DNA of 64,000 nucleotides, taken from assembly GCA_021442155.1 (NCBI GenBank), contig CM038216.1:154281009-154345008 (forward strand), written 5' to 3'. Position numbers and translations under genes: made by a program. Origin of the DNA: Cymbidium sinense. Its lineage: Eukaryota > Streptophyta > Magnoliopsida > Asparagales > Orchidaceae. The notes below the pieces were generated by a model. It saw nothing but the letters and a program-made list of their open reading frames with translations, was not told the DNA's origin and searched no databases. Shown one piece after another: positions 20,701 to 56,540 of the stretch. Position 1 is the first letter of the stretch. Each line of letters opens with the position of its first letter.

Positions 20701-20982
20701 TGCTTGTGGCGAGAGGTTCTTAAATGTTTTGAGTTGAGTTCGTTTAATTTATTTGGATACTTTCTTCGGCTGGTTATTTTTGCCTATTGGAGGTCCAATA
20801 AGTATTTTAGAACTTACTAGAGTGAGGTTCTAAAACTTAAAGGACGTTGGCTAAACTTGCCCAAATATGAAATAGTTGAGGTGACCAACAAAAAGAATGC
20901 TCATCTTGGACTTATATAAAAGTATAAGTCCATTATTGATGCTTGGAAATAATGATTGACTACTAAAGATGGAGAGGGGAAT
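17709..20982 (-). pseudogene. Ogre-like leader and gag (broken), minus strand
   Basis: Reading leftwards from the primer site at 21002: leader (about 20.98-20.7 kb, collinear with 36.79-36.99 kb), divergent N-terminal gag (about 20.4-19.0 kb), and the capsid-like region (about 18.64-18.15 kb). The last begins with a FDGSGNP-type stretch shared with the plus-strand copy at 40.75 kb. It ends in a Pro-rich tail (about 18.05-17.75 kb). A stretch near 19.02-19.06 kb matches 40.27-40.30 kb closely ('acatggttgatac'). Many stops and frameshifts; no usable reading frame. The leader lacks the long stem-loop array of the other copy but keeps two of its hairpins. Pol continues at 10066 beyond the solo LTR. 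Confidence 0.75.
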
Positions 20983-21002
20983 GATCCCCAGTGGAGTCGC
21001 CA
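20983..21002 (-). promoter_or_regulatory. Primer-binding site for tRNA-Arg
   Basis: Minus strand reads TGGCGACTCCACTGGGGATC. This is complementary to the 3' end of a plant tRNA-Arg (CCA tail, GGAGTCG acceptor, CCCAG T-arm) with one difference. A tRNA-Arg primer is a known trait of Ogre elements. It lies about 10 nt inside the LTR end (ATACCA). Confidence 0.75.
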
Positions 21003-28323: not shown

Positions 28324-30421
28324 AATTAACAAATTGAAAACTCCACTAATTTGTAACTTGAACATTCCAAACTTTAGATAATCACAATTTTAAGGCCTAA
28401 TCAAGACATATCACACCAAACCATATCGCACACATTAGAATACTAAGTCACTAATTCTAGCTTAGGTTAGGCCGGTGTATGTTGTAATTTTATGTTCTAT
28501 TTTGTGATGTAATATTTTATACTGGATGTTAGGATATTTTTTGTAGGGGATTGTGCTAAAGGGGCAACTGAAATAATAAATAAATATAAATGTTCTTACT
28601 TGCAAGTTTCTTATGCCCCTAAGCATAATCCAATTAGGATAGGTGGGCTTGTTACTATTGACCTCACTTTTGGAGTGAGCTCTCAACTTTCTCATCGTAG
28701 ATATAGGACTCTTGTAGACACTAAGAGCTCCTTAATCCTAAGACACTTCTAGAGATTAGGTGAACACTTAACCTAAGCCTAGAGACTTAGAAGGATTAGC
28801 CATGGGAATAGGTCATGCCTTAGGGATTTAGAAAGACTTGTCTATCCTATAGCCTTAAACCCAATACATGCTTCCTTCCTCAAACCAAATCTCAAATTCA
28901 AATCTAAATTCTAAATCAATTCCAAATCAAAGAATTGAAGCCCATGATCAAATTCAAATTCCAAAACCCTTCATAAGCCCTTTGATTTTATCTTATGGAG
29001 TTAGCCTTTATCAAATTCAAATCATCCTCAATTCAATTGATATTCTCGAATACCAATTCAATCTCAAATCAAACTCTCACCCCAATTCCAAATCAAATGA
29101 TTGAAACCCAAGATCAAATTCAAATATCAAAATCCCTTCCTAAGCCATATGAACCACCTTCATATGCTTAGCCAAAACCCCCCTCCAAACCAAATCAAAC
29201 TTGGTTGATTTCTTTATAAATCAATCATTCCTTCATTTATATTCACAAATATAAATGAAATCTAAATTTGAACCATTCAAATCAAATCAAACTAAATCAA
29301 ACCAAATCAAGACCTTTCTTAAGCCCTATGGACTTACCTCCATAAGCTTAATAAAATCTCAACCCAAATTAACTCAAACTCAATTGATTTCTCTATAAAT
29401 CACTTATTCCTTCATTTATATTTACAAATATAAATGAAACTCACCCTTCAATGACCAAAAATAAATAAACTAAATCAATCCCTACTTAAGCCCTTTTGAC
29501 CTATATCCTTAAACTTGGTCAAATTTACATCCAAATCACTCCAAACTTAAGTGATTTTCTCTTAACCCATTTATATCTTCATTTATATTCCCAAATATAA
29601 ATGAAATATAAATCTAAATAGTCAAAACCAAGCCCAAATCAAATCAAATTTCAAATTTTAGCCTTTTTAGCCAATTTCTTGAACTTGGCTAAATGATACC
29701 CAAATCAATTCAAAACCCATGGATTTCTTCATGAATCAATCATTCCTTCAATCACTTACCCAAATATAAACATAAACTACAATTACAAACCAAATCAAGT
29801 CAACCCAAGTCAAGCCCATGTTGACTTTTGACTTGAAATTTTCAAATGAACCAAAATCCATTTGGCTCCAAACCAATTGCAATTGGATTTATATTTCAAT
29901 CCTAGACTCATATGTGACTTCAACTAAATTTAAATCAGGCCAAAACCAAACTAATTGACCCATTTAGATCCACTTGACCCAAAGTTACCTAAAGACTCGT
30001 TTTGAGCCAAGTTCTAATCCAACCCAAATTGGATTGAATTAAGCCCATCCAAATTTCATACCATGATCAACAATCATCCTAGGGTGATCAACTATCTTGA
30101 AATGGGTCAAACCAAGTCAACTTGGTCCTTTGACCAAGTCAACTTAACCTTTTGACCAATCAACTAGCCAAATGAAACTTAAACAAGCCAAAAACCATAT
30201 ACCAAATTGATTGAAACCATCGACTCAAAACCATTCATCATGACCAAACCCCCAATTGAGCCAAACCAAGTCCAATTCACCATTTGACTAAGTTGACCCA
30301 AATTGGTCTAAAAAGCCAAAATATGTCAAATCATGATTTGATCCAAATTGATTGCAACCAATGGCTCAAGTTCATTCCAAATCATTTATTGAACTTGACC
30401 AAAGCCATGATTGAGCTCAAT

Positions 30422-30437
30422 TTGACCAATTGGTCAA
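30422..30437. repeat. 16-bp palindrome TTGACCAATTGGTCAA
   Basis: Perfect palindrome, also at 24685-24700, 30733-30748 and 51097-51112. It is the most regular part of a long block dense in TTGACC and GGTCAA words. TTGACC is the W-box core recognised by WRKY transcription factors; a role here is inference. Confidence 0.6.
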
Positions 30438-33400
30438 CTTGACCCAACCTAACCCAAATTGACCTAAAAGGTCAAATTGGCCAAAATCTAAATTAATTTC
30501 AAATTAAACCAAACTAAAGCCTACAATCATTTTCAATTAACCAATTGAATATGAACCAACACCTAACCCAACCCAATTTGGTCAAATTGGTCAAATTGGT
30601 CAACTTAGCCCATTTGCCTATTTGAATCCAAATGAGCCAAAATCAAACCTAAGCCAAATTAATCAAAACCACTTGAACCAAAAATCTTCAAATCATCATT
30701 TAAACCTAACCCAAGTCTTGGTTTGACCTAATTTGACCAATTGGTCAACCCAACCTAACCCAAATGAAGGCAAATCTTGCAAAACCAACCTATGGGACCC
30801 TAATGGCGGCCAAACTTGACCAAACTAGCCTTCATTCCCAAATAAGCCCAAATCCATAGTGGGCCCAAACAATGGACCAATGGACACACCCTCTTTTCAT
30901 TGGATTTCTCCTTTAACAAAAGTCCACTCCCCATCACCATGGCCACCAAAGCACAAGTGAGGTTTCCCAACCCATCCTAGGTCATGGACCAAGGGAGTTC
31001 ACCTCTCCTCCTCAAGCCAAAATTAAAACCCATGGATTCAAGCCAGAGGTCTTTGCACCACCCGACCTCCTACTACCTTCTCCACTCAAGTTGAGCCACA
31101 TGGAGTTGGATGTGACCCTGATGGCATCCGATGATCTTTGGTGAAATAAATAGCCCATCCTGTCCATCAACATGATTTGGGGTATACTCCCACATTTGAG
31201 CAATGTGACAATTCTGAGTTCCCTAAGCCATTTTGAACTCCTCAGCTTTCCAAGCATCCCAAAGCTCCCTCGATCAACCATTGCTCTTTGTGTGTGAAAT
31301 TGAAATAGCAGAGCCCTCCCTTAATTCAAACTCCTCCTCCACTCAACGAAATCTCAATTAAATTTACACACACCTTCACCACACCTAATCAAAGCCAACT
31401 AATTCATTTCCCAAGCATCTAAGTTATCGAAGATTGAACTTTGATCAAGACAAAATGCCAAATCGAAGGAGCTTGGTCCAACTAATTCATTTCTACCAAA
31501 TGAAGGTAACTCAGTTGATCCCATTGTCAGACATTAGCTCATGTGAGGTAATTCCTCAAAACTGTAGCTTAAGTGAATTTTCTGTGGGTCTTTGTGAAGA
31601 GAATTTTCATGTGGGTCATCTTGACTGTTGGAAGTTTTTATCTCTTTCTTTTGATGGTGTGGGATCGATTTAAGCCCAATTCGAGCTTTGGTGAGCTCGG
31701 ATCGAATGGAGAAAGATGGACAGTATCCGTCTTTCGCCATTCGCGAAGGAGACATATCACAAGCCATCCATTTCATGTGATCAAAATGGATGGTCCTGAT
31801 CTGATCATGCTAAATCTATCTCTTTCTCTCCACGATCATCATGGCCATCAGACTGGATGGTCCTGAAAGCATTTCTACCATGAGTCACCTCGATTTGACA
31901 ACTTAAATACCTATTCAATTGCACCATGAAAAGCGCTCGGCGACCATGGCATCGATGGGATTAGATTAGTGGATGTTTTAATTAATTTTTTTGAATCTTC
32001 TAAAATTATAACTAATTCTAGAAAAATCAAAAAAATATAAATGAGGGCTTATTTTGAAGATATTTCAAAGTAGAATCTATTAAAATTATTATTAATTAAT
32101 TTTAAATAGTAATTTCTACTTAATTAAGGTTTAATTAAAAATTTAATTAGCCAAATTACTCTCTGATTAGTTGTCCAACTAATTTCAAATTTTCTAGAGA
32201 TATTTGGGGGGATGACCTATGCCTCTCCTTTTTTTTAAATTTATTGGATAGTTAATTAGGAAAATCAATGATTAAGCCTTAATTACTCTCTAATTTTAAT
32301 TAGTGATAATTAAGTAAATGAACAATTAAATGATGGTTAATAATTGATTAAGCTTATTACTAATAGTGGGAAGCCTTAGGGAAGTGGTTTGGGTTTACTC
32401 CCTATAACCATTTCATTAAGCCTCCTAATTTATTTCAAATTAATTAAAGCTTAATTAATTTATTGAACCACTTAATTAATCAATTAAAATAGAAATGATA
32501 TCTAATTATTTTAGAGCCTCATTGGATGATTGAAATGACTTAGGGATTGGGATTGAGGTCGCTTCCTGATCTCTTTCACTAAGTTAATTTCATCATCCTA
32601 ATTAAAAGACATAATCAAAGATTTAATTAACCAATTAAAGGCTTAATGAAATTAATTTAAAATCCATTCATTCAAACCTAATATTCTTTAATTAATCTTT
32701 GGGTAGCTCTTTGGGTGTTCAATAACATAATGAGAGAGCTAATGAAATTATGGTTAGCTCACATGTGTGAGAAAACCATAAAAGTAATTAAGTGAGCTCC
32801 TTAAGCTTAATTAATTATTAATTATGAGCCAATTGCATTAGGCCCCTTTCATTTCTTAGGAGCATTACCAATTTACTTTTCATGTGGTTTGCATCTCATG
32901 TTGGCTCATCATTATTCAGTTAATTAACTTAAGGTGATATAGGTAAGGGTTTAATTAATGGATTTATTTTATACCTTAACCTAACCAAGACATAAAATCA
33001 ACCTAATTACTCTTCATTAATTCAAATTAACTCACATATGGGGAATGGGATTAGGATTATCAAACTCTTTCATATTTCCTAAATCAAATCAAACATAAGG
33101 ATCAAAAATAGTTTTAAGAAACTTTGCTTATTTTAAATGAGCTTGTTTAATATGATTGTTCTTAGGACTTAGTTGGATTGAATAAAATTACATGCTTGTC
33201 TTTCTTTATTTCTTTTCAATCATGTTAAAATGTTATTTCCACTTGTAATCATGCATTCATTTCTTTCAAATTAATAAACTGAAAATGATTTCTTTTATGT
33301 CAATTTGCATGTGTTGAGTTAATTAGAAATATGTGTGGCTATTATCATTATTAAATCTCAAATATATTTTCAAAAAAAAGTTTATTAATAAAATATAATA

Positions 33401-33520
33401 TTATATTATGACTTTAGTTACATATACAAACGAGATTCAAGTGAATATAAGCTTAGTGTATGAAATGAAGCTTCTTTTTTTCATTCATGTGTTGATTTGC
33501 ATAAGTTTGAATGTTAATGG

Positions 33521-34100
33521 GTATATTAGTCTGGACATTCTGGGACACGACTTTAAGTAGCCCCAAGGAGGTTCCTACCTCACTCCCCTGGTGTAGAATA
33601 ATTGTGATGTACTCATTTGATTTCATTCTTATTCATTTGAACATTAAAATTTAGATAGGGCTCTAATTCACTTACACCAATAATTCATATTTAATTAAAC
33701 TCTACCTTTGCATAGTTTTTCTATTATTGTAGTTACTTATATATTCATATGTATTTAAGAATAGCGGATATATTAGTCTAGACATCCCAGGGGTGCACGA
33801 CTTTAAGTAGCCCTAAGGAGGTTCCTACCTCACTCCCTTAGTGCAGAACAATGGCGACGTACTTGCTTAAAGGTTTCATACATTTGAATGTGTATTTACC
33901 TAATGAATGAAAATCCCATGTTTCTATTAAAAAGACATCATTCATATTTTGTTCAAATGGTGCATACTTTTTATTCTTGTATTTGTTTATACATCCATAT
34001 ATATTTATGAATAGCTAAATTAGTTGACATTAGACTTTAAGTAGCCTAAAAGGTTCTATTCTTTTGCTTTAATATGGCATGTACTTATTTAAAACTTTCT
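33521..34100 (+). repeat. ~247-bp LTR subrepeats
   Basis: Two clear copies (33521 and about 33767) and a decayed third (about 34017). They share the core 'ctttaagtagcccyaaggagg' and a downstream 'cctcactccc'. Confidence 0.75.
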
Positions 34101-34577
34101 TACATTTGAATGTGTATTTAGCTAATGAATAAAATCCCATATTTCTATTAAATACATGGATTATATTTTGTTTAAATGTTGGATTGATTAGTCATATGAT
34201 TTAGAGCTCTTTTCTTATCCTTTGCATAAGAATTTGATGCTTTAAAATATGATAAAATAATTCAACCAAATACATCAATCTAAGTGCATTTGCTTACATT
34301 CATCATTTAAGTGTGCTAAGATCAAATTGCATGTAGTTACATTTAGGACATAATCATATGCATGCTATATGATGATGAACAAACATGTATGTGATAGTAA
34401 CTAAGTCCAATTAATTATAAAGATGTCTTTATTATTGAATGAGATTATTTAAAATAAACCTAAACATTGGATTAATTAAAACACATAATAAGTCATTCAC
34501 TAAAGAATTGATTAATTAATTTGCTTTATATGTGATTTAAGGTAGGGATGAAGAGAGTGATCTCTCTTTCTTCTCTT

Positions 34578-34598
34578 TATAACACTTAGTACTAAGTG
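34578..34598 (+). promoter_or_regulatory. Candidate LTR TATA box with adjoining palindrome
   Basis: TTCTCTTTATAAC is followed at 34583-34598 by the perfect palindrome CACTTAGTACTAAGTG. The copies at 12.28-12.30 and 55.45-55.47 kb keep the palindrome arms with a different centre (CTTAG ttg/ctg CTAAG). Placement suggests the U3/R border, so the palindrome would lie at or near the start of the transcript. Confidence 0.4.
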
Positions 34599-36076
34599 TA
34601 AGCCAAGATGAAACAAAAAAACATCAAGTAAAATTTATATTAACTAAGCCACTTAGTGAAACCTCCTTTAAAATTAAATCTCTTCATACTTACAAAATCT
34701 TACTCTAAAACCTAGCTAGAACATACCACACAAGCCATAACACACATAATATATTAAGTCACCACTTTTACCTTTATGTTAGGGCGGTGCATGGTTTGAT
34801 GTATACTTATTTTTTGTATTGTTGTAGATGGATGTTAGGGTGTATGCTCATAGGTGGATGTTAGCGTGATTAGCTAATCATATTTTCTATAGAATTATGC
34901 TTAAGGGTGCTTAAAATAAATATAAATATTCTCTTTCACAGGTTGCTTAACCCCTAAGCATAATCTAGATTAGGATAGGTGGACTTGGTTACCCATGTAC
35001 AGGGTGCTAAGTCCAAATTTTACATAAAATTGCTTGGGTTGTATGGTATATTTAGCTAACACTTATCATGCATGTGTAGTTAGATTTTCTTTTACTATTT
35101 TTAATATAATTCTGCATTAGGAATTAGGAAGTGTTATGGGGATTAGGATGAGCATTGGCTAGAAGGCTTTGTCTTGAGGCCCAGTGACACTTTGAAAGCA
35201 AATCAAATGAAGAAATGGAGCAAAGACATAAAGACATGAAGATATGAAGAATGAAGACCCCCCCATCATTTGTAAAAATTATAATTATTCTTTCATATAC
35301 TGGATGTATAAGGGTAGAGCTTCATACCCATTTTTTTTTTTTATGCGGTGCAACTACCCACCGCCTATTATTCTTTCACGTTGAGTTTATAAATTGTTTG
35401 ATGCTTTATTTACAATTGTGCAATAGAAATGACATGTATTTTCCTAGTTTCTTTATCTATGATGATTTAATGTATGGCCTGGTTCCGTTTTGGCTCTTAG
35501 GAAAAAATAAGCTTTTTACCCCAATCATAACTCATAACTAAATTTTCTAAAATAACTCACAACCTCATTTAAAGCCTAGGCATTAAATCAAGATAATAAA
35601 ATTTAGCAACCCTTAGCTAAATGTTGTATGTCTAATATAATGCATGCATCTTCTACCACTCTTGTAAAATGAGGGCCATTCACTATAGGGAAACTTGACC
35701 TATGAGAGCAACTCTCTTGATGAGACACCCTCTTCTTCTTGATTTGGCCATAACTTATTTCAACATGCATTTAGGCATATAAAATCTTATGGCATGTCAA
35801 AATAAAGAGTCAAAATCAAATAAAATTTGATAAGTTTGCATTAGACTAAGTCATTATTCATACCACTCATGCTCTAGTCTCTTAGGAGTGGGTTTAAGAC
35901 TTTAGTTTCTTTCTAAATAATAACATCCTAACCATCTTGCAAAACATATGACTTGACCACATGGTTTTAAAATGTAGGAGTTAGGCTTGCCACTCAAGTA
36001 GTTATAAGTCCGTCGGGGTTTACCCTCTCTTGTGGAGGTAAACAATATACCCATTTTTACCTTAGATTTAGGACAT

Positions 36077-36767: not shown

Positions 36768-36784
36768 TGGTGACTCTGGGATGG
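36768..36784 (+). promoter_or_regulatory. Decayed tRNA-Arg primer-binding site
   Basis: TGGTGACTCTGGGATGG aligns with the better-kept site TGGCGACTCCACTGGGGATC at 20983-21002 (minus) with substitutions and a deletion. It lies about 7 nt after the LTR end. Confidence 0.65.
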
Positions 36785-36911
36785 TTCCTCTCTCCATCTC
36801 TAGTAGACAATTATTGTCTCCAAGCATCGATAGTGGACTTGTATTTCATATGAGTCCAAGACTATCTTTCCTTCCATTAGCACTTAGCTTATTTCATTCT
36901 TAAGCAAAGCT

Positions 36912-36983
36912 AGCCAACATCCTCTAGGTTTTAGGACCTCACTCCTTGTAGGTCTTAAAGCCCCTATTGGGTTTCCCAATAGG
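36912..36983 (+). ncRNA. Two leader stem-loops upstream of the array
   Basis: First: TTTAGGACCT pairs with AGGTCTTAAA (one G-U). Second: CCTATTGGG (36963-36971), loop TTT, CCCAATAGG (36975-36983), perfect. Both have partners in the minus-strand leader: 20805-20813/20827-20835, and 'ctattgg aggtccaatag' near 20783-20800. Stem bases differ there in a compensating way. No transcript evidence. Confidence 0.5.
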
Positions 36984-37215
36984 TAAAAAATAATAATAAA
37001 CAACATTAACACATGAAAGGAGATGACCAAAAATTTAGAATCTCCTCACCACTAGCTTGGTGAGGCAAGGTTCATCCGATATTTAAGAAAATAAACTCTT
37101 TTGCAAAATGTCACTTTTCAAAAGGACCTTTTCAAAATTCACATAATAAAAGATTTTGCACAAAATTCATAAGAAACTTTCAAAAAGTACAAAACTATAC
37201 AACCAAACCCTATTT

Positions 37216-38606
37216 AACAATCCCCATGATTGTTACATGGAGGTTCTTTTCAAAATCACCTTTTTGAAAACTACCTTCATTCAACATACCCAAATTTATT
37301 GAATGAAGAATCTATTTTTAAATAAAATCATAAGCATAAAATTGAAACTCCACTTAACATATTTCACATATGCTAAAGTTGGAGTTTTCCTCTTTTTCAA
37401 AAGCACATTTTTGAAAATAGTTATCTCTATTAAACATACTCAAATTTATTGAATGAAGATTCTATTTTCAAATAAAATCATAGCACAAAAATTGAGATTC
37501 CATTTAGCATGTTCCACATATGCTAAGGTTGGAATTTCCCCTTCTCAAAAAGCAAGAAATCACACACAAAATTAAGACATATTTTGAACTTTTCATACCC
37601 AAATTTGTCAAATGAATTCTCTTCTTTAAAAATCAAATAATGAATTCTATTTTAACACCATATTTGTCAAATAGGTTCTCCTTTTCAAAGTCTTGAAAAT
37701 TAAAATACATATGGACTTCATTTAACATACCAAATTTGTTAAATGAAGGTCCCATTTTCAAAATTAATACATTGAACCCTACTTAACATACCAAATTTGT
37801 TAAGTAGATCTCATTTCAAAAATCATAAATATAGTTGACTCCTACTTAACATACCAAATTTATTAATTAAGGGTCTCATTTTCAAATCATAACACAATTG
37901 ATTCCTACTTAACATACCAAATTTGTTAAGTAAGAATCTCATTTTCAAAATATATTACATTTGGCTTTCACTTAACATACCAAATTTGTTAAGTGAGGGT
38001 CTCAACTTCAAAACACAAATCATATTACATTTGACTTTCAATATATCAAATTTGTTAAGTGAGAGTGGTATTTTCAAAAAGAAAATCATAAACACATTTT
38101 GACCCCCACTTAACATACCAAATTTGTTAAGTGAGAGTCTCATTCTCAAACACAAATCAAATCACATTTGGTTCTTACTTGACATACCAAATTTGTTAAG
38201 TAAGAGCCTTATTTTCAAATTAAACAAGCACATATCAAGCAACATTTGGCCTCTACTTAACATACCCAATTTGTTAAGTAAGAAGCCCCACTTTCAAATC
38301 ACATCAACATATATCACACACATAACCAATCATCACAAGCAAAGATTTTTTACAAAATTTTCAAAATATATAATCAAAACTTTTCATTAGCATACCTAAA
38401 TTTCCTAAGTAATGTTTTTCAAAATTTTCAAACAAGATACACAACACAAACATCTTCAAAGGTCTCTCCAAATATATGAACCCTGCCTAACCTACTTAAA
38501 TTAGTTGAGTATGGGTTCTAAATCAAAATCAATTAGAAAAGACTCTCACATATCAAAATCTCTCTAATGATCCACACTTAGCATAACTAAATTTGTTGAG
38601 TGTAGG
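37216..38606 (+). repeat. Tandem array of about 18 stem-loops with covarying stems (element leader)
   Basis: Array lies between the primer site and gag. Units are about 60-110 bp apart. The well-kept units have a stem, the 11-nt loop ATACCAAATTT (or close), and the return arm. Spacers often carry 'ctcattttcaaa'. Clear stems: 37275-37284/37299-37308 (CTTCATTCAA/TTGAATGAAG), 37716-37726/37738-37748 (CTTCATTTAAC/GTTAAATGAAG), 37779-37787/37799-37807, 37900-37913/37925-37938 (one mismatch), 37968-37976/37988-37996, 38107-38114/38126-38133, 38170-38183/38195-38208 (G-U pairs), 38254-38261/38273-38280, 38574-38582/38595-38603 (two G-U). Smaller hairpins precede them: 37216-37222/37228-37234 and 37247-37255/37262-37270. 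Units near 37348, 37420, 37504, 37580, 37647, 37842, 38034, 38385 and 38478 are weaker or have different loops. The minus-strand leader lacks the array, so it expanded in, or was lost from, one lineage. Confidence 0.85.
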
Positions 38607-38739
38607 TTCAAATTTTTAAATCATATTCTAGAAGTTATTTCTGAAGTTGAATACCAAAGCAAGGGATTGATTCAATTATGTTTTCAACAAATGCAAAGTT
38701 TTAGTTCAGTCAATTTTTGTTCAGTTTAGTTCGGTACAC

Positions 38740-41700
38740 ATGGCTCCTAGCAAGTTTGTGTTCTCCTTCCCGTCAGATGTTGACTTGGCCCTGGATCAGG
38801 CCGAGCTCACCTCAACCACTATGCATCTAATTTAGTTTGGTCCTGAATTTGAGGCTGTGCGAGTCACATGTGAGGGGACAATCCTCATGATAGCCCGTAG
38901 GGAGGAGGTGGCGGGACAGACGCAGCCTATTCACTTTGACATGCCTTCTGCACCTGATTTTCCTCCACTGAAGAGGAAGGTAGTAAAGGTCCCTAGAGTG
39001 AGTTCAGCTTGACATGATAGTGGTAGCACTAGTGTCGGCTTCCACTGCTATTCCATCTTGTTCACCTGTACCCATGAGGGCTGACACCTCCTCGTTACTC
39101 CCCTCAAAGGGGAAGGCTATCTTGGCCTCCGAGATAGTCTCCCCTAACTTCGAGGTAGGTTCCAGCTCCCACCCCACTCAACTCACCTCACACCACAACA
39201 AGAAAAGGTGGTGACATAAGGGGGTAGCATCCATATTATAGGGAGGGTTCACCGAGGTTTCCCCCTTACTTAGTGTTAGATTCTCCTCTGCTGATGGAGA
39301 GAGGATTACAGAAGGTGCATCACCTCCACCACCAACATATTATGAGGTACCAGCTAGGGAGAGGAAGAGACCCTACGTTGGATTATGCTTAGTCATTCGC
39401 CAGATAGGCATAGCTCACAGACGCTTGGAGTCTAGTGCATTGTTTGACTTGAGGTCTTTGATCCTTAAGAGCATCAGGGATCAGGTACATAAAGCCCAAT
39501 ACACAGAAGCTTGAGTAGTAGTGCAAGCAGATAGGAGAGAGAGGAAGAGGTATGCCTGACAGTCGGCAGCCTCCGCTCTTATGAATTTCCTAGGTTGGCA
39601 GCTACTAGAGCCGACCATACTGAGAGTATAGTACTTATGGGCATGGTTAATCATAGGAGAAGAGTTCCTGCTGAGTGACAATCGGTGTCTCCACCACACT
39701 GCACTGCTCATCACCCACCTTCACTAGTGCATGTTCTAGCATCTCCTATGCCAGCCAAGGTGCATATGTCTGCATCGGGGGAGAAAAGAGCCCCGTTAGT
39801 GATCCGATTATGGCCTTAGGGTCCCATTCCATCTACTCCACCCATTGAGGTGAGGTTGAGCTCTCCTTCTCTACCTTCCACTTCAACTATGGTGAAGAAG
39901 GAATGGCAACCTAAGAGCGCCATAGTCATTCCACCACCTCCACCATAGTTGGCAGTAGCAGTAGTAGAGGTGGAGGGAGACAATTCAAAGTTCCCATGGC
40001 AGTAGATCTCCCCAAAGGCAGCACTCCACTGGTAGTCAGTCATGAGCATGTATCTTCTAGCGAGCATAGTCCTTCCAGAGGTAGCACTCTAGTGGCGATG
40101 TTAGATGCATTTCGTGTGAGCATAATCTACTACCGGTCGGCTATTTGTTTGCACGGTTAGATCATTCCTTAGATGACATTCTAGCATATTTTATGAAGAA
40201 GAGAAATCAGAAGCGTGATCATTGAGGAGGAAATGTCAATTTTGACCCTAATGAGAATGATTTGTTGGGGGACTGAGGTCTACATGGTTGATACTAGGAG
40301 CTCCCTCCATAGAGACCAACAGAGCCAAGAAGGTATTATGGTTGAAGAGGATGATATCGTCCATTCAACTCAGCACCTCCTCCAATAGCTTAGATAGAGA
40401 GATGATCATATTGACAAGATGGGGAAGAAAATTGAGGAGTTGATGGTAGTAGTTTTAGCATTGTAGAACTCACCCCATTTGCCTTCTCCATAGAATATGA
40501 GAGTTGAGTTGGCATACTTTAGATCATCCTAGATGCATTCACAGAGGAAGATAGTGGTATCTTGCATAGGAAGGTGGTAGATAGTGCCTCCATGCATGAG
40601 AAAGATATCAAACACATGGTGGAACATCAAGTGAGAGAAGCGCTGGCGCAAGCCTGAGGTTGCTCATCAGTTTCAAAAGGTAGAACCTACCCAGAGGAAT
40701 TTGATGCAGTTCAATATCCGAACGATTTTGTGCCTCATTCTTTCAAAATCTTTGATGGTAGTGGGAACCCTCACCAACATTTTCACATTTAGGGCATTGT
40801 TTACCTGGGAGGTATGATGCCCTTCTTTTCAAATTGTTTGTTAGCAGTCTAGTGGGTGTTGCATTTGATTGGTATACTGAACTACCCAATGGTTCGGTAA
40901 AGACATTTGCTAAGTTGGAGCACCTCTTCTTCAAGAGGTTTGTTGGAGCTCAGCAAAAGGTTATTGTAGGCGACCTCACAGTAGCAAAGCAAAATCCCAA
41001 CTAGTCCTTTGTTGATCATTACATTCTCGGTGGAAACAGTATGAAATGCAAACCATATCGAATAACACCATAGAGATTCTCCAGAAGAACATCCATGGCC
41101 GATCACTTTCATGCTTAAGGGTTTACAATCAAAACCTTTGATAATCAACAAGTAGTCTACAAGAGGAAGCCTTGCCTTTCCAGACCAATCAACCAAGCCC
41201 AAACCTCAGAAGGAATTTGAGAAGAAGCTAGTGATAGTCATAGAAGTCGATAATGGGAAGCAGCTAGCTTGGGTTCAATCAGATAGGCCTCGATCTCAAC
41301 AGCCTCTTCTGCCACCACCTCGATCGTCATACCAGCCACATCAGTTGCCATAGTAGCCACCACTACTGCCTCCTCATCGGCATCCTGTAGCGTATTCTAC
41401 CACCAGTAGCTATTACCTACTCTTCGATAGATTGAATAACCATATTTATTCAAAGAGGTAGTCGAAGATCTTTAAGAATCTTAAAGAAGCGATTTGATTC
41501 TAGAGCTAGAGAGGAGGAGGAAGTGGGCAAGAGTCATGATCCAAACTACCGCATGTTAGGCCATGTATTAGAAGATTGTATTACCTTTAAGGACTAGCTT
41601 GAGCGTAGCTATAAGTCGGGTACCATCATCATACCAAAGGAATACCTATTAGAACAACCTTCTGGTTCTATAAGAGTAATCCCCTGAGAAACATGCGATC
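38740..41700 (+). pseudogene. gag: Ogre-like gag (broken)
   Basis: First ATG in a readable frame is at 38740 (MAPSKFVFSFPSDVD...). That frame carries a TAG at codon 32 and ends at 39010-39012. Further downstream the reading frame shifts several times. The capsid-type region is recognisable at about 40.74-41.22 kb: IFDGSGNP, then WYTELPNGSVKTFAKLE, then FFKRFVGAQQK, the usual order of a plant retrotransposon gag domain. A Pro/Gln-rich stretch follows (41.29-41.42 kb) and a Cys/His stretch (HVLEDC, about 41.57 kb) that resembles a gag zinc knuckle region. In life Gag would form the particle that packages element RNA. Many stops are TAG in Gln-rich context, for example two in a row after LP at about 41.35 kb. 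Domain calls are by eye. Confidence 0.8.
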
Positions 41701-44330: not shown

Positions 44331-45060
44331 TTGAGCAGCAGGTCATTTCTAAAATCAAGAAACTGATCGATGATGATTTTATCATGAAAGAAAAATATTC
44401 TACCTAGTTGGCTAGTGTCATCCCAGTTAAGAAAAAGAATGGCCAAATTTGCATATGCATCGATTTTAGGGATCTGAATAAGGCATGTCTAAAAAATGAA
44501 TTTCCACTTCCTATACCAGAGATGATGGTGGAGATTGTCTCATCTCATACAGTATTCTCTTTCATGGATGGGTCATCTGGCAATAACCAAATTAAGATTG
44601 CCCCCATAGGACAAGAAAAATACTATCTTTTGAACCCCCGATCGAAATCTATTATTATAAGGTCATTCCTTTCAGCCTTAAAAATACTGATGCATCATAC
44701 CAACGGGCCATAACTTAAATCTTCGATGATCTTATAGTCAAAAGTAAAGAAAATAAAAACCACCTCTTTCACCTAAGAGTAATTTTGAATGGTTAAGATA
44801 ATTTAACCTTGAAATGAATCCCCTGAAGTGTCCATTTGGAGCAACTTCAAGAAAATTCCTTAGGTTTGCTGTCCGACACCAAGGAATAGAAATCAATTTA
44901 GAGAATATCAAGGCTATCTTAGAAATGCCACCCTCTAAAAGCCTAACTCAACTTAGATCATTTTAAGAGCATTTGGTGTATCTAAGATGCTTCATTTTCA
45001 ACTTATCAGGAAGATGCAAGCCATTTTCAACACTTGTCAAAAAGAATGTTAAGTTCAAGT
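44331..45060 (+). pseudogene. pol: Reverse transcriptase domain of pol (broken)
   Basis: It would copy element RNA to DNA. Recognisable: VIPVKKKNGQICICIDFRDLN (about 44.42-44.48 kb), FPLPIPEMM, and motif A as FSFMDGSSGNNQIKIAP with the catalytic Asp (about 44.56 kb). Then comes a damaged stretch. At 44719-44730 the sequence runs directly IFDD, followed by LIVKSKENKNH, so the residues expected just before the YxDD catalytic pair, including Tyr, are deleted. Downstream FLRFAVRHQGIEINLENIKAILEMP (44.86-44.93 kb) is the usual C-terminal part. Stops include TAG at 44406. Family assignment is firm; the enzyme is dead. Confidence 0.88.
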
Positions 45061-46060: not shown

Positions 46061-46212
46061 TGTCCCTTATTGATGCTGAACTCATCGAGAGACTCTCTCT
46101 TGAAGGGGAGGTTATCATTTTCAAAAAGGATAACAAGACAGATTGGAGGCAACCATTCATAGATTACCTAAATATAGGCAAACTACCTTAAGAGAAGTCA
46201 TTAGCCCATCAG

Positions 46213-47372
46213 GTGAAGCAGAGAGCCCTCTCATACACACTCAAGGATGGCACCTTCTATCGACAGTCCTTCGATCATATGTGGTTATGTTGTTTAGATA
46301 GACACAAAGCCCAGAAGATCATGATCAAGGTACACTTAAGTTTATGTAGAGCTCACCAATCCAGTCTGAAGATGAAAGCAAAGATCAAGAGACTAGGATA
46401 CTACTTGCCCTCAATGATCATAAACTGCATAGATATCATTAAGAGATGCCACAAATGTCAGGTGCATGGTGTGGTCATACACCAACCACCCAACATTCTA
46501 CATTTGGCCTTATGGTCATTTGAGTGTTGGGTTACCGACATAGTGGGTCCGATTGAACCTTCTTCTTCTAAGAGTCATTAGTTCACTCTAGCTGCCACCG
46601 ACTACTTTTCCAAGTGGGTGGAGGCAATCCCACTTAGAGAGGTCACAGCTCAGCATGTGCTCCAATTTTTCAGGAACCATATCGTATATAGGTTCGGGAT
46701 GCCTCGACAAATTATATCTGATAATGGTAGTGCATTCAAGAGCACTAAAATCAACAGCTTTTCTTGGAGACACAGCATAGATTAGAGATATTCTACCATA
46801 TATTACCCAAGGGAAAATGGCTTAGTAGAAGTCTTCAATAAAAATTCTCATCCATATATTAAAGAAGACACTGATTACAACAAGTGGAAGTGGCATGAGC
46901 AGTTAGTTGAAGCCTTATGGGCTTACCACACGACATATAGGACTCCAACTCAATTTACCCCTTTCTCCTTACTATATGGGTCTGAAGTAGGTCTGACTCC
47001 CATCATTAAGGATAATTCTGGGTAGTAAAATCACAATAGAGCATAATGCTAAGTTGCGATTAGAAGAGCTAGAAGGTTTGGAGGAGAGACATCTCTGGGC
47101 ATGCCAGAACCTCGAGTTGTACAAAGCTAAAATGATTCAAGCTCATAACGAGTTAGTCCTTCTAGAGCTTTTCAAGTAGGAAAGCTTATTTTAGTTCTAA
47201 GGAGACCAATTGTTGCCCGTCGAAAGATGGGAGGCAAGTTTGAACCCACTTGGGAAGGCCCCTTCTCTATAAAAAGGCCTACTAAGGAGGATCTTATCAG
47301 CTTATAAATTATAAGGGAGAGCGCCCTATGCTTCCAATCAATAGGCTCTACTTAAAAAAATATTATCCATAA
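46213..47372 (+). pseudogene. pol: Integrase domain and C-terminal tail of pol (broken)
   Basis: It would insert the DNA copy into the genome. Zinc-binding N-terminus: LCRAHQSS then RCHKCQ (about 46.34-46.46 kb). Catalytic core: Asp in CWVTDIVGP (46537-46539), Asp in IISDNGSAFKS (46720-46722), and Glu in NGLVEVFNK (46828-46830), all in one frame and spaced D-60-D-35-E as in active integrases. In-frame TAGs interrupt at 46579 and later. The tail includes GGKFEPTWEGPFSI and ends KKYYP-stop at 47370-47372, the usual end of Tat-type pol. It is the best preserved domain of the element. Confidence 0.9.
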
Positions 47373-48537: not shown

Positions 48538-49517
48538 TAGGATCGTGAGCAAAACCCCCCGATACCTTTTCCCAAGCATGCATCCTATCTTTAGGATGTG
48601 TAAAACCCTATAGGAATCACCGACTACTTTTGAGTTGAGATAAGTCCTGCAAGACTCTCAAGAATTTCAGTTTGATTTATTGTCACCTGGTTGCTTTAGA
48701 AGATGTATTACGCATCTCCAAAGATGACTATTGCACACTAAAAGGCACCCATTAGGTTGGTTAACTCTACCTCATGGTCGGTAGACTATTCGTTTGGATT
48801 TGTAAATCTAAGATAGGACTAGGAAGATATTAGCCCCTTCTTAGTGGATCCATCACACACTGATAGGATCCATCTTAAATTAAAATAAAATTAATTCTGA
48901 CTATCTTTGAGTTGGTATGAGTCCACAGTGGCATTCACTCAATAGTCTCCTTAGGTCAGGATCAATTTATTGCACTAGTAACTGATCACCCTAGTAGTTC
49001 CTCATTTAGGAAGTTGTAAGTCTACAAGCCTTCTTCCTGACCTGACCACTGCACACCAAATGGAAACCCTTATGTTGGTTAGCTCTATCTGATGGTCAGT
49101 AGACTATCCCTTTGAATTTGTAAATTCAAGATAGGATTAGGCTGATATTAGCCCCTTCTTAGTGGATCCATTTTATCAAAATCACATCTTCTCTCTAGTG
49201 GAGTCTCAAATCATAAACAAATTCCCATCCCTAGTGGATACCTTAGACCTGCTTCCCTAGTGAAAGATTCATGCACTCATCTCCAGCAGATTTTCTCTAC
49301 CTAAATTAAATCACATTCCTCTACGATGAAGCACAAACTATATCCTCCCCTCAATGGAGCACCACATGATCAAACCAAATCAAATTCTTTATCCCCAGTG
49401 GATAATATGAACCTGCTCCCTTAGTGGAAGGTTACATGCTTGATCCCTCAGTGGATCCTTCCTTCCTCTCTTATGCCCTTGGCATAAGTTGAGTTGCATT
49501 GCATTAAGATCTTGACT
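47373..49517 (+). repeat. Repeat-rich region between pol and 3' LTR
   Basis: No gene seen. Diverged direct repeats share a 'gatgtaagtctacaagccttcttcctgac'-like word near 47.69, 47.82, 48.03, 48.15 and 49.01 kb. A longer duplication pairs 47.58-47.80 with 48.90-49.10 kb ('ggcactcactcattag'/'ggcattcactcaatag'). At 49.18-49.46 kb a shorter repeat with 'ccctagtggata' or 'ccagtggataat' recurs several times. A TA microsatellite lies at 48479-48535. Satellite-like repeats in this position are known in Ogre elements. No clear polypurine tract is visible before the LTR. Confidence 0.65.
48479..48535. repeat. (TA)n microsatellite
   Basis: About 28 TA dinucleotides; the open frame across it has no meaning. 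Confidence 0.95.
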
Positions 49518-52500
49518 TGTCTATCCTATAGCCATAAACCCAAACCATGCTTCCTTCCTCAAACCAAACCTTAAATTAAAATCCAAATTCTAAATCAAAT
49601 AATTGAAGCCCATGATCAAATTCAAATTCCAAAAACCCTTCCTAAGCCCTTTATTTTTATCTTATGGACTTAGCCTTTATCAAATTCAAATCAACCTCTA
49701 TTCAATTGGTATTCTCAAATACCAATTCAATCTCAAATCAAATTCCAACCCCAATTCCAAATCTAATGATTGAAACCCATGATCAAATTCAAATATCAAA
49801 ATCCCTTCCTAAGCCATATGAACCACCTTCATATGCTTAGCCAAAACCCCCTCCAAACCAAATCAAACTTGGTTTATTTCTTTATAAATCAATCATTCCT
49901 TCATTTATAATCACAAATATAAATAAAATCTAAATTTAAACCATTCAAATCAAATCAAACTAAATCAAACTAAATCAAGACCTTTCTTAAGCCCTATAGA
50001 CTTACCTCTATAAGCTAAATCAAATCTCAATGCAAATTAACCCAAACTCAATTGATTTTTTTATAAATCAATTATTCCTTCATTTATATTTACAAATATA
50101 AATGAAACCCACCCTCCAATAACCAAAAATAAATTAATCTAAATCAATCCCGACTTAAGCCCTTTTGACCTACATCCTTAAACATGGTTAAATTTGCTTT
50201 CAAATCACTCCAAGCTCAAGTGATTTTCTCATGAACATTTATATCTTCATTTATATTCCCAAATATAAATGAAATATAAATACAAATAGCCAAAACCAAG
50301 CCCAAATCAAACCAAATTCCCAAGTTTAGCCTTTTTAGCCAATTTCTTGAACTTGGCTAAATGATACCCAAATCAATTCAAAACCCATGGATTTCTTCAT
50401 GAATCAATCATTCCTTTAACCATTTACCCAAATATAAACATAAACTACAATTACCAAACCAAACTCAAGTCAACCCAAGTCAAGCCATGTTGACCCCTTT
50501 TGACTTGAAATTGTCATATGAACAAAAATCCATTTGGCTCCAAACTAATTGCTATTGGATTTATATTTTAAGCCTAGGCTCATATGTGAGTTCAACTAAA
50601 TTTAAATCGGGGCAAAACCTAACCAATTAACCTATTTAGGTCCACTTGACCCAAAGTGATCTAAAGACCCTTTTTGAGCCAAGTTCTAATCCAACCCAAA
50701 TTGGATTGAACTAAGCCCATCCAACCCTCATACCATGATCAACAATCATCCTAGGGTGATCAACTATCTTGAAATGGGTCAAACGAAGTCAACTTGGCCC
50801 TTTGACCAAGTCAACTTTAGCCCAAATGAAACTTAAATAAGCTGAAACCCACTATATACCAAATTGATTGAAACCATTGACTCAAACTCATTCATAATCA
50901 ATGATTGAACATGACCAACCCCCCAATTGAGCCAATTGAGCTAAACCAAGTCCATTGACCATTTGACCTAAGTTGACCCAAATTGGCCTAAAAAGCCAAA
51001 ATAGGTCAAATCATGATTTGATCCAATTACAACCAATGGCTCAAGTTCATTCCAAATCATTTATTGAACTTGACCAAAGCCGTGATTGAGCTCAATTTGA
51101 CCAATTGGTCAACTTGACCCAACCAAGCCCAAATTGACCTAAAAGATCAAATTGGCCAAAATCCAAATTAATTCTAAATTAAACCAAACCAAAGCCTACA
51201 ATCATTTTCAATTAACCAATTGAATATGAACCAACACCTAACTCAACCCAAATTGGTCAAATTAGTCAAATTGGTCAACTTACCCCATTTGACCTATTTG
51301 AATCCAAATGAGCCAACATCAAACCTAAGCCAAATTAATCAAAACCACTTGAACCAAAACTCTTCAAATCATCATTTAAACCTAACAAATCTTGGTTTGA
51401 CCCAATTTGACCAATTGATCAACCCAACCCAACCTAACTCAAATGAACCCATTTTATCTAAAAGAAGGCAAATCACGCAAAACCAACCTATGGGACCCTA
51501 ATGGCTGGCCAAACCCAACTTGAACTAGCCTTCAATTATTCCCAAATCAGCCCAAATCCATAGTAGGCCCCACCCAAGCAATGGACCATTGGACACACCC
51601 TCTTTCCATTGGATTTATCCTTTAATAAGCAAGGTCAACTCCCCCATCACCATGGCAACCCCCAAGCACTCAAGTGAGGCTCCCTCTGACCCACCTAGCT
51701 CACCTAACCCATCCTAGTTTGACCAAGGACCAAGGGGAGTTCACCTCTTCCACACTCAAGCCAAAACCAAAAACCCATGGATTCAAGCCAAAGGTCTTTG
51801 CACACCAACCCTTGGGCAACCTCCCACTGCCTTCTCCACTCAAGTCGAGCCACATGGAGTTAGATGTGACCACTCTGATGCCCTAATGGTGGCCTACCAT
51901 CTATAATATGCCAGCCCATCCCATCCATCCATCAAGCACAATTTTGAGGTATACTCCACCAGTGATAATTCACATCAGAGTTTCCACATTTTCAAAACTC
52001 CTGAGCTTCCAAGCATCCAAATCTCCTCAATCGCCATTGATCTCGGTTCAAAACAAAATAAGGGAACCTCCTTATTCAAACCTCCTCCACTCAATCAAAT
52101 CTCAATTAAATTTACACACACCTTCACCACACCTAATCGAAGCCAACCAATTATTTCCCAATCTTCCAAGCTGTCGGAGAGAGGACTTCAATCAAGACCA
52201 AACACCAAATCAAATGAGCTTGGTCCATATAGAAAACCACCTCAAATTAAGGCTCGTGCAGCTCAACGGGACTTCATTTCTACAAAATGAAGCTACCTTA
52301 TGCAATCCCACTGCTAGACATTAGCTCCAGTGAGGTAATTCCTCAAAACCATAGCTTAGGTGAATTTTTCGTGGGCCTTTGTGAAGAGAATTTTCATGTG
52401 GGTCGATCTTCATCGTTGGATGTGCTCATCTCCTTCTCCTAATTGTGTGGGATCTATTTGATCCCAATCTGAGCTATGGTGAGCTCGGATCGAATGGAGA

Positions 52501-55500
52501 AAGGCAGACGGTATCCATCTTTCACCATTCGTGAAGGAGATAGATCATGGTCTGATCGAATATGGCCTTGATCTAATCACAAAAGATCCATCTCTATTTC
52601 ATCCCTAACCACAAGATTTGATCATGGCCATCTGATCTTAGATCGGACGGTCCACGAGAAAGCGCGTCCATCGTAATCAAGATTTGATAACTTAAATACC
52701 ATATCGCCGCCATGTAAAAGCGCACGCCACGCCGATGCCGTCGCATGGCGTGATTAGGGATTAATTAGGGTTGTTTTAATTAATTTTTAAGGTTGAATTT
52801 TTTTAAAATAATAACTAATTTTAGAATAATCCAAAAAAATACAAATAATGGCTCATTTTGAAGATATTTTATAGTAGAATCTATTAAAATTATTATTAAT
52901 TAATTTTGAATTATAATTTTTGCTTAATTAAGATTTAATTAAAATTTTAATTAGCCTAATTACTCTATGATTAGTTGTTCAATTAATTTCAAATTTTTTA
53001 GAGATGTTTAGAGAGATGACCTCTACCTGCCTTACTTTTCTTGGAATTTATTGGATAGTTAATTAGGGAAATCAATGGATTAAGCATTAATTACTCTCCA
53101 ACTTTAATTAGTGATAATTAATCAAATGATTAGTGGTTTAATTAATTGATTAAGCTATTGTCCTCTGTTAATAAGAGTCTTAAGGAAGTGGTTTGGGTTT
53201 ACCCTAACCATTTCATTAAGCCTCTATTTATTTCAAATTAATTAAAAAGCTTAAATTAATTAAACCACTTAATTAATCAATTAAAATAGAAATGATATCT
53301 AATTATTTTAGAGCCTCATTTGATGATTGAAATGACTTAGGGATTGGGATTGAGGCCTCTTCCTTGATCTCTTTCTCAAAGTTAATTTCATCATCCTAAT
53401 TAAAAGATATAATTAAGAGATTTAATTAACTAATTAAAGGCTTAATGAAATTAATTTAAAATCCATTCATTCACAACCTAATCTTCCTTAATTAATCCTT
53501 GGGTAGCTCTTTGAGTGTTCAATAATCTAAAGAGAGAGCTAATGAAATTATGGTTAGCTCACATGTGTGAGAAAACCATAAAGTAATTAAGTGAGCTCCT
53601 TAAGCTTAATAAACTATTAATTATGAGCCAATTGCATTATACCCCTTTCATTTTTTATTAGTTTTACGAATTTACTTTTCATGTGATTGCATCTCATGTT
53701 TCCTCATCATTATTCAGTTAATTAACTTAAGGTGATATAGGTAAGGATTTAATTAATGGATTTAATTCGTACCTTAACCTAACTAAGATATAAATCAATC
53801 TAATTGCTCTTCATTAAATCAAATTAACTCACATATGAGTAATGGGATTAGGATTAGCAAACCTCTTTCAATTTATTAAATCAAATCAAACATAAAGATT
53901 AAAAATGGTTTTAAGAAACTTTAGCTTGTTTTAAATGAGCTTGTTTAATATGATTATTCTTAGGACTTAGTTAGATTGAATGAAATTACATGCTTGTGTT
54001 TCTTTATTTCTTTCCAATCATGTTAAAATGTTATTATCACTTGTAATCATGCATTCATTTCTTTCAAATTAATTAAATGAAAATAATTTCTTTTATGTCA
54101 ATTTGCATATGTTGACTTAATTAAAAATATGTGTGGCTATTATCATTATTAAATCTCAAATATATTTTCAAAAAAAAAGTTTATTAATGAAAAATAATAT
54201 TATATGTTATGACTTTAGTTACATATACATAGGAGATGAATGTGAATATAAGCTTAGTGTATGAAATGAAGTCTCTTTCTTTCATTCATGTGTTGATTTG
54301 CATAAGTTTGAATGTTAATGGGTATATTAGTCTAAACATTCCGGGAATGCACAGCTTTAAGTAGCCACAAGGAGGTTCCTACCTCACTCCCCTGGTGCAG
54401 AACAATGGTGACATACTCATTTGATTTCAATCTTATGCATTTTAATATTAGAATTTAGATAGGGCTCTAATTCACTTACACAAATAAATCATATTTAATT
54501 AAACTCAACCTTTGCATGGTTTTTCTATTCTTGTAGTTGCTTATACATCCATATGTATTTAAGAATAGCGGGTATATTAGTCTAGACATTATAGGGATGC
54601 ATGGCTTTAAGTAGCCCTAAGGAGGTTCCTACCTCACTCTCTTGGTGCAGAACAATGGTGACGTACTTGCTTAAAACTTCAATACATTTGAATGTGTATT
54701 TAGCTAATGAATGAAAATCTCATATTTATATTAAAAAGACATGCATTCATATTTTGTTCAAATGGTGCATGCTTTTCTATTCTTGTAGTTGCTTATACAT
54801 CTATATGTATTTAAGAATAATGAATATATTAGTCTGGACATCCCAGGGATGCACGGCTTTAAGTAGCCCTAAGGAGGTTCCTAACTCACTCCTTTGGTAT
54901 AGAATAATGGCACTATACTTGCTTAAAATATTCATACATTTGAATGTGTATTTAGCTAATGAATGAAAATCTTATTTTTCTATTAAAAAGACATGCATTC
55001 TTTTTTTGTTTAAATGTTTGGATTGAATAGTCATATGATTTAGAGTTCTTTTCTTATCCTTTTGCATAAGAATTTAGATAGAGCTTTAAATTAATATAAT
55101 GAAATAATTCAACCAAATAAAACATCAATTCTAAGTGCATTTGCTTACATTCATCATTTAAGGGTGCTAAGATACAAATTGCATGTATAGTTACATTTAG
55201 GACCTAATCATATGCATACTATATATGATGCAAAGAAATGAATGAACATGTGTTATGTGATAGTAATTAAGTCCAATTAATCTTAAGATGTCTTTCTTAT
55301 TGAATGGGATTATTTAAAATAAACCTAAACCTATGATTAATTAAAAACACATAGTAAGTCATTCACTATAGGGAATTGATTAATTAATTTGCTTTAGATG
55401 TGATTTAAGGCAGGGATGAAAAAGAGTGATCCTCTCTTTTCTTCTCTTCATAATACTTAGCTGCTAAGTGTAAGCCAAGATGAAACAAAAGAAAACATCA

Positions 55501-56540
55501 AGTAAAATTCATAAATTAACTAAGCCACATAAAGTGAAACCCTCCTTTAAAACTAAATCTCTTCATACTTAGAAAATCTTAACTCTAAAACCTAGCTAGG
55601 ACATACCACACAAGCCTTAGCACTCACGTTAGATTAACTCACCACTTCTAACTTTATGTTAGGGCAGTGCATGATTTGATGTACACTTATTTTGTGATGT
55701 ATTATTATAGATTAGATGTTAGGGTGTATATGTTAGGCCGTGATTAGCCTAATCATATTTTCTTCAAAAGATTATGCTGAAAAGGTGCTTAAAATAAATA
55801 TAAATGTTCTCTTTTGCACATTGCTTAACCCTAATATATTAGACAGTGGACTTACCCATGGTACTAAGTCCAAATTTTACATATAACTACTTAGGTTGTA
55901 TGATATGTTTAGCTAACACTTGTTTTGTAGGTGTAGTTAGATTTACTTCTCCTATTTTTAATATAATTTTGCATTAGAAATTAGGATTAGTGTTATGGGG
56001 GGATTAGGATGAGCGGTGGCTAGAAGTCTTTGTCCTGAGAGGCCTCGTGGCGCCTTTGAAACAAGCAAATCCAAATTAATAAATGGAGCAAAGACATGAA
56101 GACATGATGATATGAAGAATGAAGACCCACATAGCATTTATTTATAAAAAGTTGTAATTATTCTGTCATATATTGGGATGTATAAGGGTAGAGCTCGGCT
56201 ACCCACATTTCTTTTCGGGTTGTATGGCGGTACCCGACCGCATCGGCCTATTCTTCTTTCACGTTGAGTTTATAAAGTGTTTGATCCTTTGTTTATAATT
56301 GTGCAATAGAAACGGCATGTATTTTCCTAGCTTCTTTATCTATGATGATTTAATGTATGGCTTGTACTTGATTAGGCTCTTAGGGAAAAATAAGCTTTTT
56401 ACCCCAATCACAACTCATAACTAAATTTTCTAAAGTAACTCATAGCCTCGCATAAAGCCTAGGCATTAAATTAAGATAAATAAAAGATTTAGCAACCCCT
56501 TAGCTAAATGTTGTATGTCTAATATCATGTATGCATCTTT
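49518..56540 (+). mobile_element. 3' LTR of the near full-length element, both ends missing
   Basis: Collinear and highly similar to 28839-35655. Compared with its partner it lacks the first ~180 bp (starting at 'tgtctatcctatagcc') and the last ~1.1 kb (U5-like end). It contains the TTGACC/GGTCAA block (50.5-51.5 kb; palindrome 51097-51112), the GC-richer block (51.5-52.75 kb), the AT-rich block (52.75-54.3 kb), three ~250-bp subrepeats (54321, 54571, about 54824), a decayed TATA region with a CTTAG/CTAAG palindrome (about 55.45 kb), and the 'gtataagggtagagctcggctaccc' block (56.19 kb). Open frames at 51.22-52.32 kb are LTR sequence, not genes. Confidence 0.85.
54321..54950 (+). repeat. Three ~250-bp LTR subrepeats
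   Basis: Starts near 54321, 54571 and 54824. Core 'ctttaagtagccctaaggagg' (one base different in the first). Confidence 0.8.

Follow-up and report, generated by a model that had tools for sequence, protein, structure and literature searches.

Are the paired stems of a hairpin array in a plant retrotransposon leader kept by selection on a folded RNA, or does some other process make the two arms of each stem agree? The question is raised by the window analysed here, the whole stretch of 64,000 nucleotides of Cymbidium sinense DNA. A sequence-only reading of this stretch had described about 18 stem-loops with a constant loop and covarying stems, placed between a primer site and gag, and had attributed the pairing to selection on RNA.

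The element that carries the array

The recognisable parts of the element are listed in order.

28835..35652, + strand: 5' LTR, matched part (self-BLAST to 49514-56539), probably extending to about 36767
36768..36784, + strand: primer-binding-site-like sequence TGGTGACTCTGGGATGG, read from the sequence
36793..38740, + strand: leader, 1.95 kb in this copy
37275..38608, + strand: hairpin array, 16 constant-loop units and two second-class units
40762..41004, + strand: gag-like frame piece (PF03732, E=1.7e-4, 22.2 bits, just under the cut-off of 24.1)
44408..44713, + strand: Ty3-like reverse-transcriptase frame piece (PF00078 only at E=0.035)
46192..46581, + strand: integrase zinc-binding frame piece (PF17921, E=3.3e-6, exceeding the cut-off)
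46786..47025, + strand: weak integrase-core-like frame piece (matches to solved integrases start at E=0.0037; Pfam without a hit up to E=0.05)
49514..56539, + strand: 3' LTR, matched part (self-BLAST partner of 28835-35652)

The two long direct terminal repeats were 84.2% identical when gaps were counted, and substitutions accounted for 639/6675 aligned bases (9.6%) in the self-BLAST. Their divergence was uneven, at 12-19% in 30875-32436 and 6-11% in the remaining 500-base steps. The coding region of this copy has decayed into short frames. Among solved structures, the reverse-transcriptase piece had just two matches at E of 0.1 or below, both of them Ty3 proteins: reverse transcriptase/RNase H (4ol8, E=4.4e-9) and Gag-Pol (7q5b, E=1.7e-8). 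For the integrase piece the analysis turned up one relative, 223 aa long and located on an ENA contig of 750 bases, and an NCBIfam search with the three pol pieces gave no match. The order of the pieces, gag-like, reverse transcriptase, integrase, is the gypsy order. A Ty1/copia host element of the Sirevirus type was ruled out, because the reverse-transcriptase piece is Ty3-like and lies before the integrase piece. Judged by frame order and terminal repeats, the array-bearing element is a decayed Ty3/gypsy-type LTR retrotransposon. The marks of the Ogre/Tat lineage include an extra frame before gag. The described position of the array was confirmed: it lies between gag and the primer-binding-site-like sequence, whose letters we take to resemble a sequence complementary to the 3' end of a plant tRNA.

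Related elements seem to be nested in this region, with further LTR-related stretches in both orientations at 2748-4174, 16416-17711 and 23471-24838. A 250-260 bp tandem repeat was present in two to three copies at 12625-13397, 33519-34184 and 54320-55016, twice inside the LTRs listed above. A separate 75-170 bp tandem array at 61394-62295 lies in or adjoins a GC-rich stretch (GC 0.56 in 60-62 kb vs 0.27-0.46 in the remaining 2 kb steps).

The array in the focal copy

Eight sites within three mismatches of CTTAACATACCAAATTTGTTAAG were found at 37721-38278, compared with a mean of 0.00 over 100 shuffles, and Tandem Repeats Finder returned a 63/66/126 bp array at 37696-38219. The typical unit has a loop of 9-10 nt, UAC(Y)YAAAUU, on an inner stem of 9 bp, which is followed by an outer stem of 5-6 bp. 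Between the two stems there is often a conserved A.C mismatch or a single base bulged on the 3' side. The second class of hairpin has the loop TTCAC/TCCAC and longer arms than the constant-loop class. The second-class hairpins and the best preserved or otherwise informative units are the following.

37344..37388, + strand: second-class hairpin, first copy
37494..37538, + strand: second-class hairpin, second copy
37716..37748, + strand: unit U7, perfect 12 bp stem
37900..37938, + strand: unit U10, 14 bp, one A.C mismatch
37963..38001, + strand: unit U11, 15 pairs, three G.U among them
38101..38139, + strand: unit U13, 13 bp, two A.C mismatches
38170..38208, + strand: unit U14, 15 pairs, two G.U among them
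38569..38608, + strand: unit U18, the last of the array, two-G.U stem

On folding, nine focal hairpins (eight of the first class and one of the second) gave -8.1 to -19.7 kcal/mol, with z of -3.8 to -7.8. The array of about 18 units is real, although six units are partly broken in this copy (near 37423, 37592, 37647, 37837, 38028 and 38385). The stems that the sequence-only reading had listed exist, including the two-G.U stems of U14 and U18, but its list left out the A.C mismatches, which are nearly as many as the G.U pairs (16 G.U vs 13 A.C over the 19 units U0-U18; 21 vs 20 over the 16 constant-loop units).

A plasmid collection held no match to the array. Two viral-contig matches to the core pattern were set aside as chance; these contigs look alike, and the stretches inspected held no array. 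Pairing of the loop elsewhere on the same strand of the element was also rejected, as AATTTGGTA had 0 occurrences in 28835-56539.

The array in other copies of the family

We searched the 3.53 Gb assembly with 510 bases of the array, and 40 of the 4568 first-look candidates were scored. The search gave 80 matching stretches, which were joined by hand into at least 40 places including the focal copy, all in one genome. Two of these, L040 and L011, resemble L039 and L008 in position or sequence and were counted as duplicates of them, without alignment in full, leaving 38 copies to be treated as independent. Beside the array, the primer-site region was matched in 37/40 places, the first part of the leader in 37/40 and the start of gag in 33/40. 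A profile search recovered 775 units in the 40 places. The 38 copies taken as independent carried 11-35 units each (median 19.5), and half of the adjacent units were spaced 65-95 bases apart. From the 775 unit rows, 745 were used for clustering, 560 or 543 had full stems, and 426 distinct units entered the calibrated tree simulation. Groups of fewer than nine units were omitted from the group-majority, G.U/A.C and arm-swap analyses.

Clustering by sequence context gave 11 groups with at least eight units, nine of which had exactly one member per copy, in 14-36 copies. Orthologous units retain their own stems and the common loop. The array is therefore common to many copies, with its orthologous units recognisable, and its pairing persists in these family members, whose stems are not freely mismatched.

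The loop read TA(C/T)(C/T)AAATT in 15/16 group majorities, and its commonest forms were TACCAAATT (407 units), TACTAAATT (73), TATCAAATT (54) and TATTAAATT (36). In one orthologous group (32 copies) the loop carries AAATTG and is closed by C-G, whereas the others are closed by A-T; this C-G pair marks the edge of the loop. Conservation was 0.938 in the loop, and the 5' spacer was as constant (0.925), so constancy alone does not single out the loop. Pair 12-40 (model columns) was a conserved C.A mismatch in 387/747 units. The second-class hairpin, found 88 times in the array family, also has a conserved A.C mismatch (71/86 readable copies), together with compensated pairs (C-G 52, T-A 11; C-G 76, T-A 4).

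Covariation between the stem arms

The focal alignment comprised all 16 constant-loop units, broken ones included, with the two second-class units left outside. It contained 27 two-sided cells vs 13.6 after shuffling, and 80.9% paired cells vs 74.6% (0/500 shuffles for both). The short units themselves supplied the trees, which leaves exact probabilities rough: under a strand-symmetric model at scale 1, simulation on the focal tree gave 63.6 +- 6.7% paired cells (1/300 reached 80.9) and 10.6 +- 4.0 two-sided cells against the observed 27 (0/300). When the tree was set to half length, the percentage paired alone was reached in 13% of simulations and the number of two-sided cells in none.

The 426 distinct units were compared with a tree-aware simulation in which the rate was calibrated for each column. 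Watson-Crick cells made up 77.3% vs 61.0 +- 5.7 in the simulations (largest of 40: 70.8), and two-sided Watson-Crick cells numbered 543 vs 141 +- 57 (largest of 40: 280). When the partner was slid by one column, the Watson-Crick cells fell to 30-34%. The partner column had the highest mutual information in 7/15 stem columns, where one was expected. Each unit's own 3' arm paired better than that of the next unit in 287/505 comparisons, equally in 129 and worse in 89. Among majority stems of the 14 of 16 groups that were gap-free, own arms formed 11.9 of 15 pairs vs 9.5 when swapped (0/10000 permutations), and the own arm was best, jointly in some cases, in 9/14 groups.

These results show that the arms covary beyond shared descent. 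The claim that both arms change together around a constant loop thus held for the focal units and for the 426 distinct units alike; covariation exceeds phylogeny-aware nulls and relatives keep their pairing, the two points on which the sequence-only reading had proposed that it could fail. Covariation drawn from the focal leader and the window's second copy alone was discarded, two sequences being too few and double transitions preserving pairing by themselves.

Hairpins elsewhere in the leader and in the LTRs

Upstream of the array, the leader contains further hairpins.

36828..36866, + strand: leader hairpin A
36927..36962, + strand: leader hairpin B
36963..36983, + strand: leader hairpin C
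37044..37065, + strand: leader hairpin D
37210..37240, + strand: altered unit U0, directly upstream of the array, at the site of the single array-type unit of a sister subfamily

Hairpins with at least eight net pairs numbered 13 in the leader, compared with a mean of 2.3 (largest 4) in 20 dinucleotide shuffles. The hairpin chain assigned to 37275-38606 is present, but dense hairpins also occupy the whole leader (36.79-38.74 kb) and the 5' part of both LTRs. Stem-loops are thus located between primer site and gag, as in a packaging or dimerisation leader of the retroviral type. Of 28 leaders taken, one had length 0, and 27 with both flanks found were folded and measured; they ranged from 1.78 to 2.94 kb. 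A search of 36600-38900 against Rfam gave nothing above the gathering score, the only hit being mir-964 on the minus strand (24.8 bits, cut-off 100, E=0.059).

Depletion of AUG for scanning or shunting was rejected, as the signal was weak (10.1 AUG per kb of leader vs 12.6 predicted by base composition). The minus strand folded more stably than the plus strand in 27/27 leaders; it is G-rich, so this bias yields no conclusion on strand, and the choice of strand by folding energy was dropped.

A second set of hairpins, in repeats of about 167 bp, occupies the 5' part of both LTRs (28835-30800 and 49514-51500); one example, TTCATTTATATT/AATATAAATGAA, occurs three times in the 5' LTR. On the majority string of 22 copies, this part of the LTR had eight hairpins scoring at least 9 vs 3.4 in 60 shuffles (largest 6). 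No pair in these LTR hairpins had two Watson-Crick types each in at least three of the 22 copies.

Timing and origin of the array

For stem types found in two or more copies, the ratio of two-sided Watson-Crick to one-sided changes was 5:69, compared with 14:581 in private types (odds ratio 3.0, p 0.049). For types shared by at least three copies, the odds ratio rose to 6.1 to 13.4, with p 0.009 to 0.0009. The numbers before insertion are small, and the comparison skipped tree edges and private units more than six changes apart. Assigning units to the nearest type may add to the private double changes and so would lessen the contrast. These observations suggest that pairing was kept up before insertion, in the active phase, rather than during replication of the dead copies.

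A sister subfamily occupies at least 40 places in the same genome, and the window has its own copy.

20490..20985, - strand: sister-subfamily leader with a single array-type unit

The leader of this copy, read by eye, is about 0.6 kb long. The majority sequence of 28 sister copies has hairpins homologous to those upstream of the array and one array-type unit, with a 15 bp stem, one bulged A and the loop UAACCAAGUU. Given the one unit in the sister and an altered unit at the same place (U0) in the array family, the chain would most simply be an amplification of a single leader unit in one lineage. It is possible that units were instead lost in the sister subfamily.

G.U and A.C states in the stems

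A stem that is selected as RNA is expected to prefer G.U over A.C. Under strand-symmetric pairing rules, G.U and A.C states were about equally frequent in all sets: 71 vs 73 among states shared by at least three copies, 105 vs 123 among private states and 18 vs 20 among majority states, summed. A preference of the sense strand for G.U was thus absent from shared and private states, and the argument that G-U-preserving changes point to RNA did not stand.

The upstream hairpins had seemed to carry an excess of G.U (17 positions vs 4 of A.C; pseudo-pairs 10.1 vs 11.7). It vanished with symmetric picking, most of these hairpins having come from a finder biased towards G.U. A symmetric finder gave 15 G.U vs 12 A.C in the upstream hairpins of the array family and 19 vs 24 in those of the sister subfamily. 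The array groups had 30 vs 33 (pseudo-pairs 36 vs 57.5), a faint preference at best. Where a stem type occurred in two or more copies, G.U exceeded A.C by 63 vs 21 without pair 12-40 and by 63 vs 53 with it. One-sided events on the shared-type tree gave G.U:A.C ratios of 33:26, 22:15, 16:9 and 11:6 with this pair (p 0.23 to 0.43) and 33:20, 22:12, 16:6 and 11:3 without it (p 0.05 to 0.12); no version of the count brought the lead of G.U below p 0.05. Pairing itself is therefore shown to be upheld, and the form that was selected may have been RNA, most simply the genomic RNA of the element, or DNA.

Explanations for the paired stems

Our preferred explanation, to which we would give an even chance, is that a Ty3/gypsy-type family amplified one leader hairpin to about twenty and that pairing was selected while the element was active. 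In one retrotransposon lineage, a single hairpin would have been multiplied into the chain, and selection would have acted on the hairpins during the active phase, most simply in the genomic RNA. A loop-reading protein may bind each of the repeated units. The likeliest such protein would be Gag or nucleocapsid, for packaging or assembly, because the chain sits between primer site and gag. The position, the constant loop in one orientation, the variable but paired stems and the variable unit number all fit a repeated site on genomic RNA. We tentatively extend this to a multivalent scaffold on the genomic RNA, formed by tandem packaging or assembly hairpins of tunable number; how many units there are, rather than their sequence, would set how strongly it binds in competition with relatives. 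Each unit of such a scaffold would keep the loop that is read while its stem drifts through compensated changes.

The strongest rival to the RNA-hairpin reading, though we think it rather unlikely, is template switching at palindromes. Reverse transcriptase, the most likely agent, would copy one arm onto the other during transposition, and covariation would arise without selection on folding. Template switching has been reported to create and maintain hairpins (PMC8794818); that paper concerns DNA replication, and the version with reverse transcriptase is an extension of it. A process blind to strand predicts G.U equal to A.C, as observed; the LTR 5' part has a hairpin excess too, and more compensation before than after insertion suits a process linked to transposition. 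However, template switching also predicts inverted loops, and no true one was found: three near matches were two ordinary units and one second-class hairpin, against 471 matches of the ordinary form, so that the loop is conserved in a single orientation. Arm copying would moreover erase the A.C mismatch inside the stem, which persists in both hairpin classes, and the LTR hairpins lack the recurrent pairs of two Watson-Crick types.

It is less probable still that the palindromes are sites at the DNA level, bound by a dimeric host factor or serving as recombination or chromatin signals in the manner of Sirevirus boxes. The strand symmetry of the mismatches and the Sirevirus precedent, as excerpted from PMC2829016, agree with such sites. 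The arms, which would be the half-sites, are variable (0.66-0.84) and the loop is constant (0.94), the reverse of a palindromic binding site.

We hold it very improbable that one palindromic unit simply grew into an ordinary tandem repeat without function, in which covariation reflects only the shared descent of unit types. A unit number of 11 to 35, the descent groups and the frequency of tandem arrays in plant Retand elements (available text of PMC11963269) are what such a repeat would show, but it was already disfavoured by tree-aware nulls that stay below the observed pairing and by the worse fit of neighbouring arms.

The least probable of these explanations is kissing loops, in which AAAUUU or CAAAUUUG palindromes would join two units, or two genomes, in dimerisation, as proposed for the start of Ty1 RNA dimerisation (PMC5454406, in part): AAATTT is present in 626/769 units, but this share (0.81) is about what column conservation alone gives, another six-base palindrome occurs in 1/769 units only and the 32-copy group with the C-G closing pair has AAATTG, so a self-complementary loop kept by selection was rejected.

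Dozens of insertions allow the array to be read one unit after another, and a one-unit sister stands alongside, so that selection on pairing can be compared with neutral decay in one genome. With clear covariation and no G.U signal of the RNA type, it is a test case for separating RNA selection from template switching.

Comparison with known systems

The array combines known kinds of structure, leader stem-loops and retrotransposon tandem arrays, and the covarying chain itself seems undescribed: a search of the open-licence PMC literature found no account of a plant LTR retrotransposon whose leader carries covarying hairpins in a chain. BARE of barley is a Ty1/copia element. Like the array family, it is a plant LTR retrotransposon, said to carry conserved dimerisation and packaging signals; the excerpted description (PMC3735527) is without a tandem hairpin chain, unlike the array here.

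The packaging and dimerisation stem-loops of retroviruses and Ty1 also lie in 5' genomic RNA, in the 5' UTR and sometimes into gag. They are a few distinct hairpins, as far as the available parts of PMC5454406 and PMC4588261 describe them, whereas the present array has 11-35 related tandem units and is known from sequence alone. Retand (PMC11963269) and retrotransposon-derived satellites (PMC7004042) likewise form tandem arrays that are specific to a family, vary in length and lie in non-coding internal DNA. In Retand the arrays are placed after pol and ahead of the 3' LTR, unlike the leader array here, and the words 'hairpin' and 'inverted repeat' have 0 occurrences in the main text of PMC11963269.

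The RM boxes of Sirevirus, repeated palindromic motifs, are found within the LTRs and ahead of the envelope gene, most of them with a CGG-CCG core (PMC2829016, in excerpt), a core that is absent from the array group majorities as read by eye. Both systems place many copies of a palindromic motif in the non-coding DNA of a plant LTR retrotransposon. Unlike the boxes of Sirevirus (Ty1/copia), the array units lie in a Ty3/gypsy-type leader, are A+T-rich and longer, and covary around a constant loop. In the Sirevirus boxes, as far as that excerpt describes them, the palindrome is the constant part; in the array, it is the variable part.
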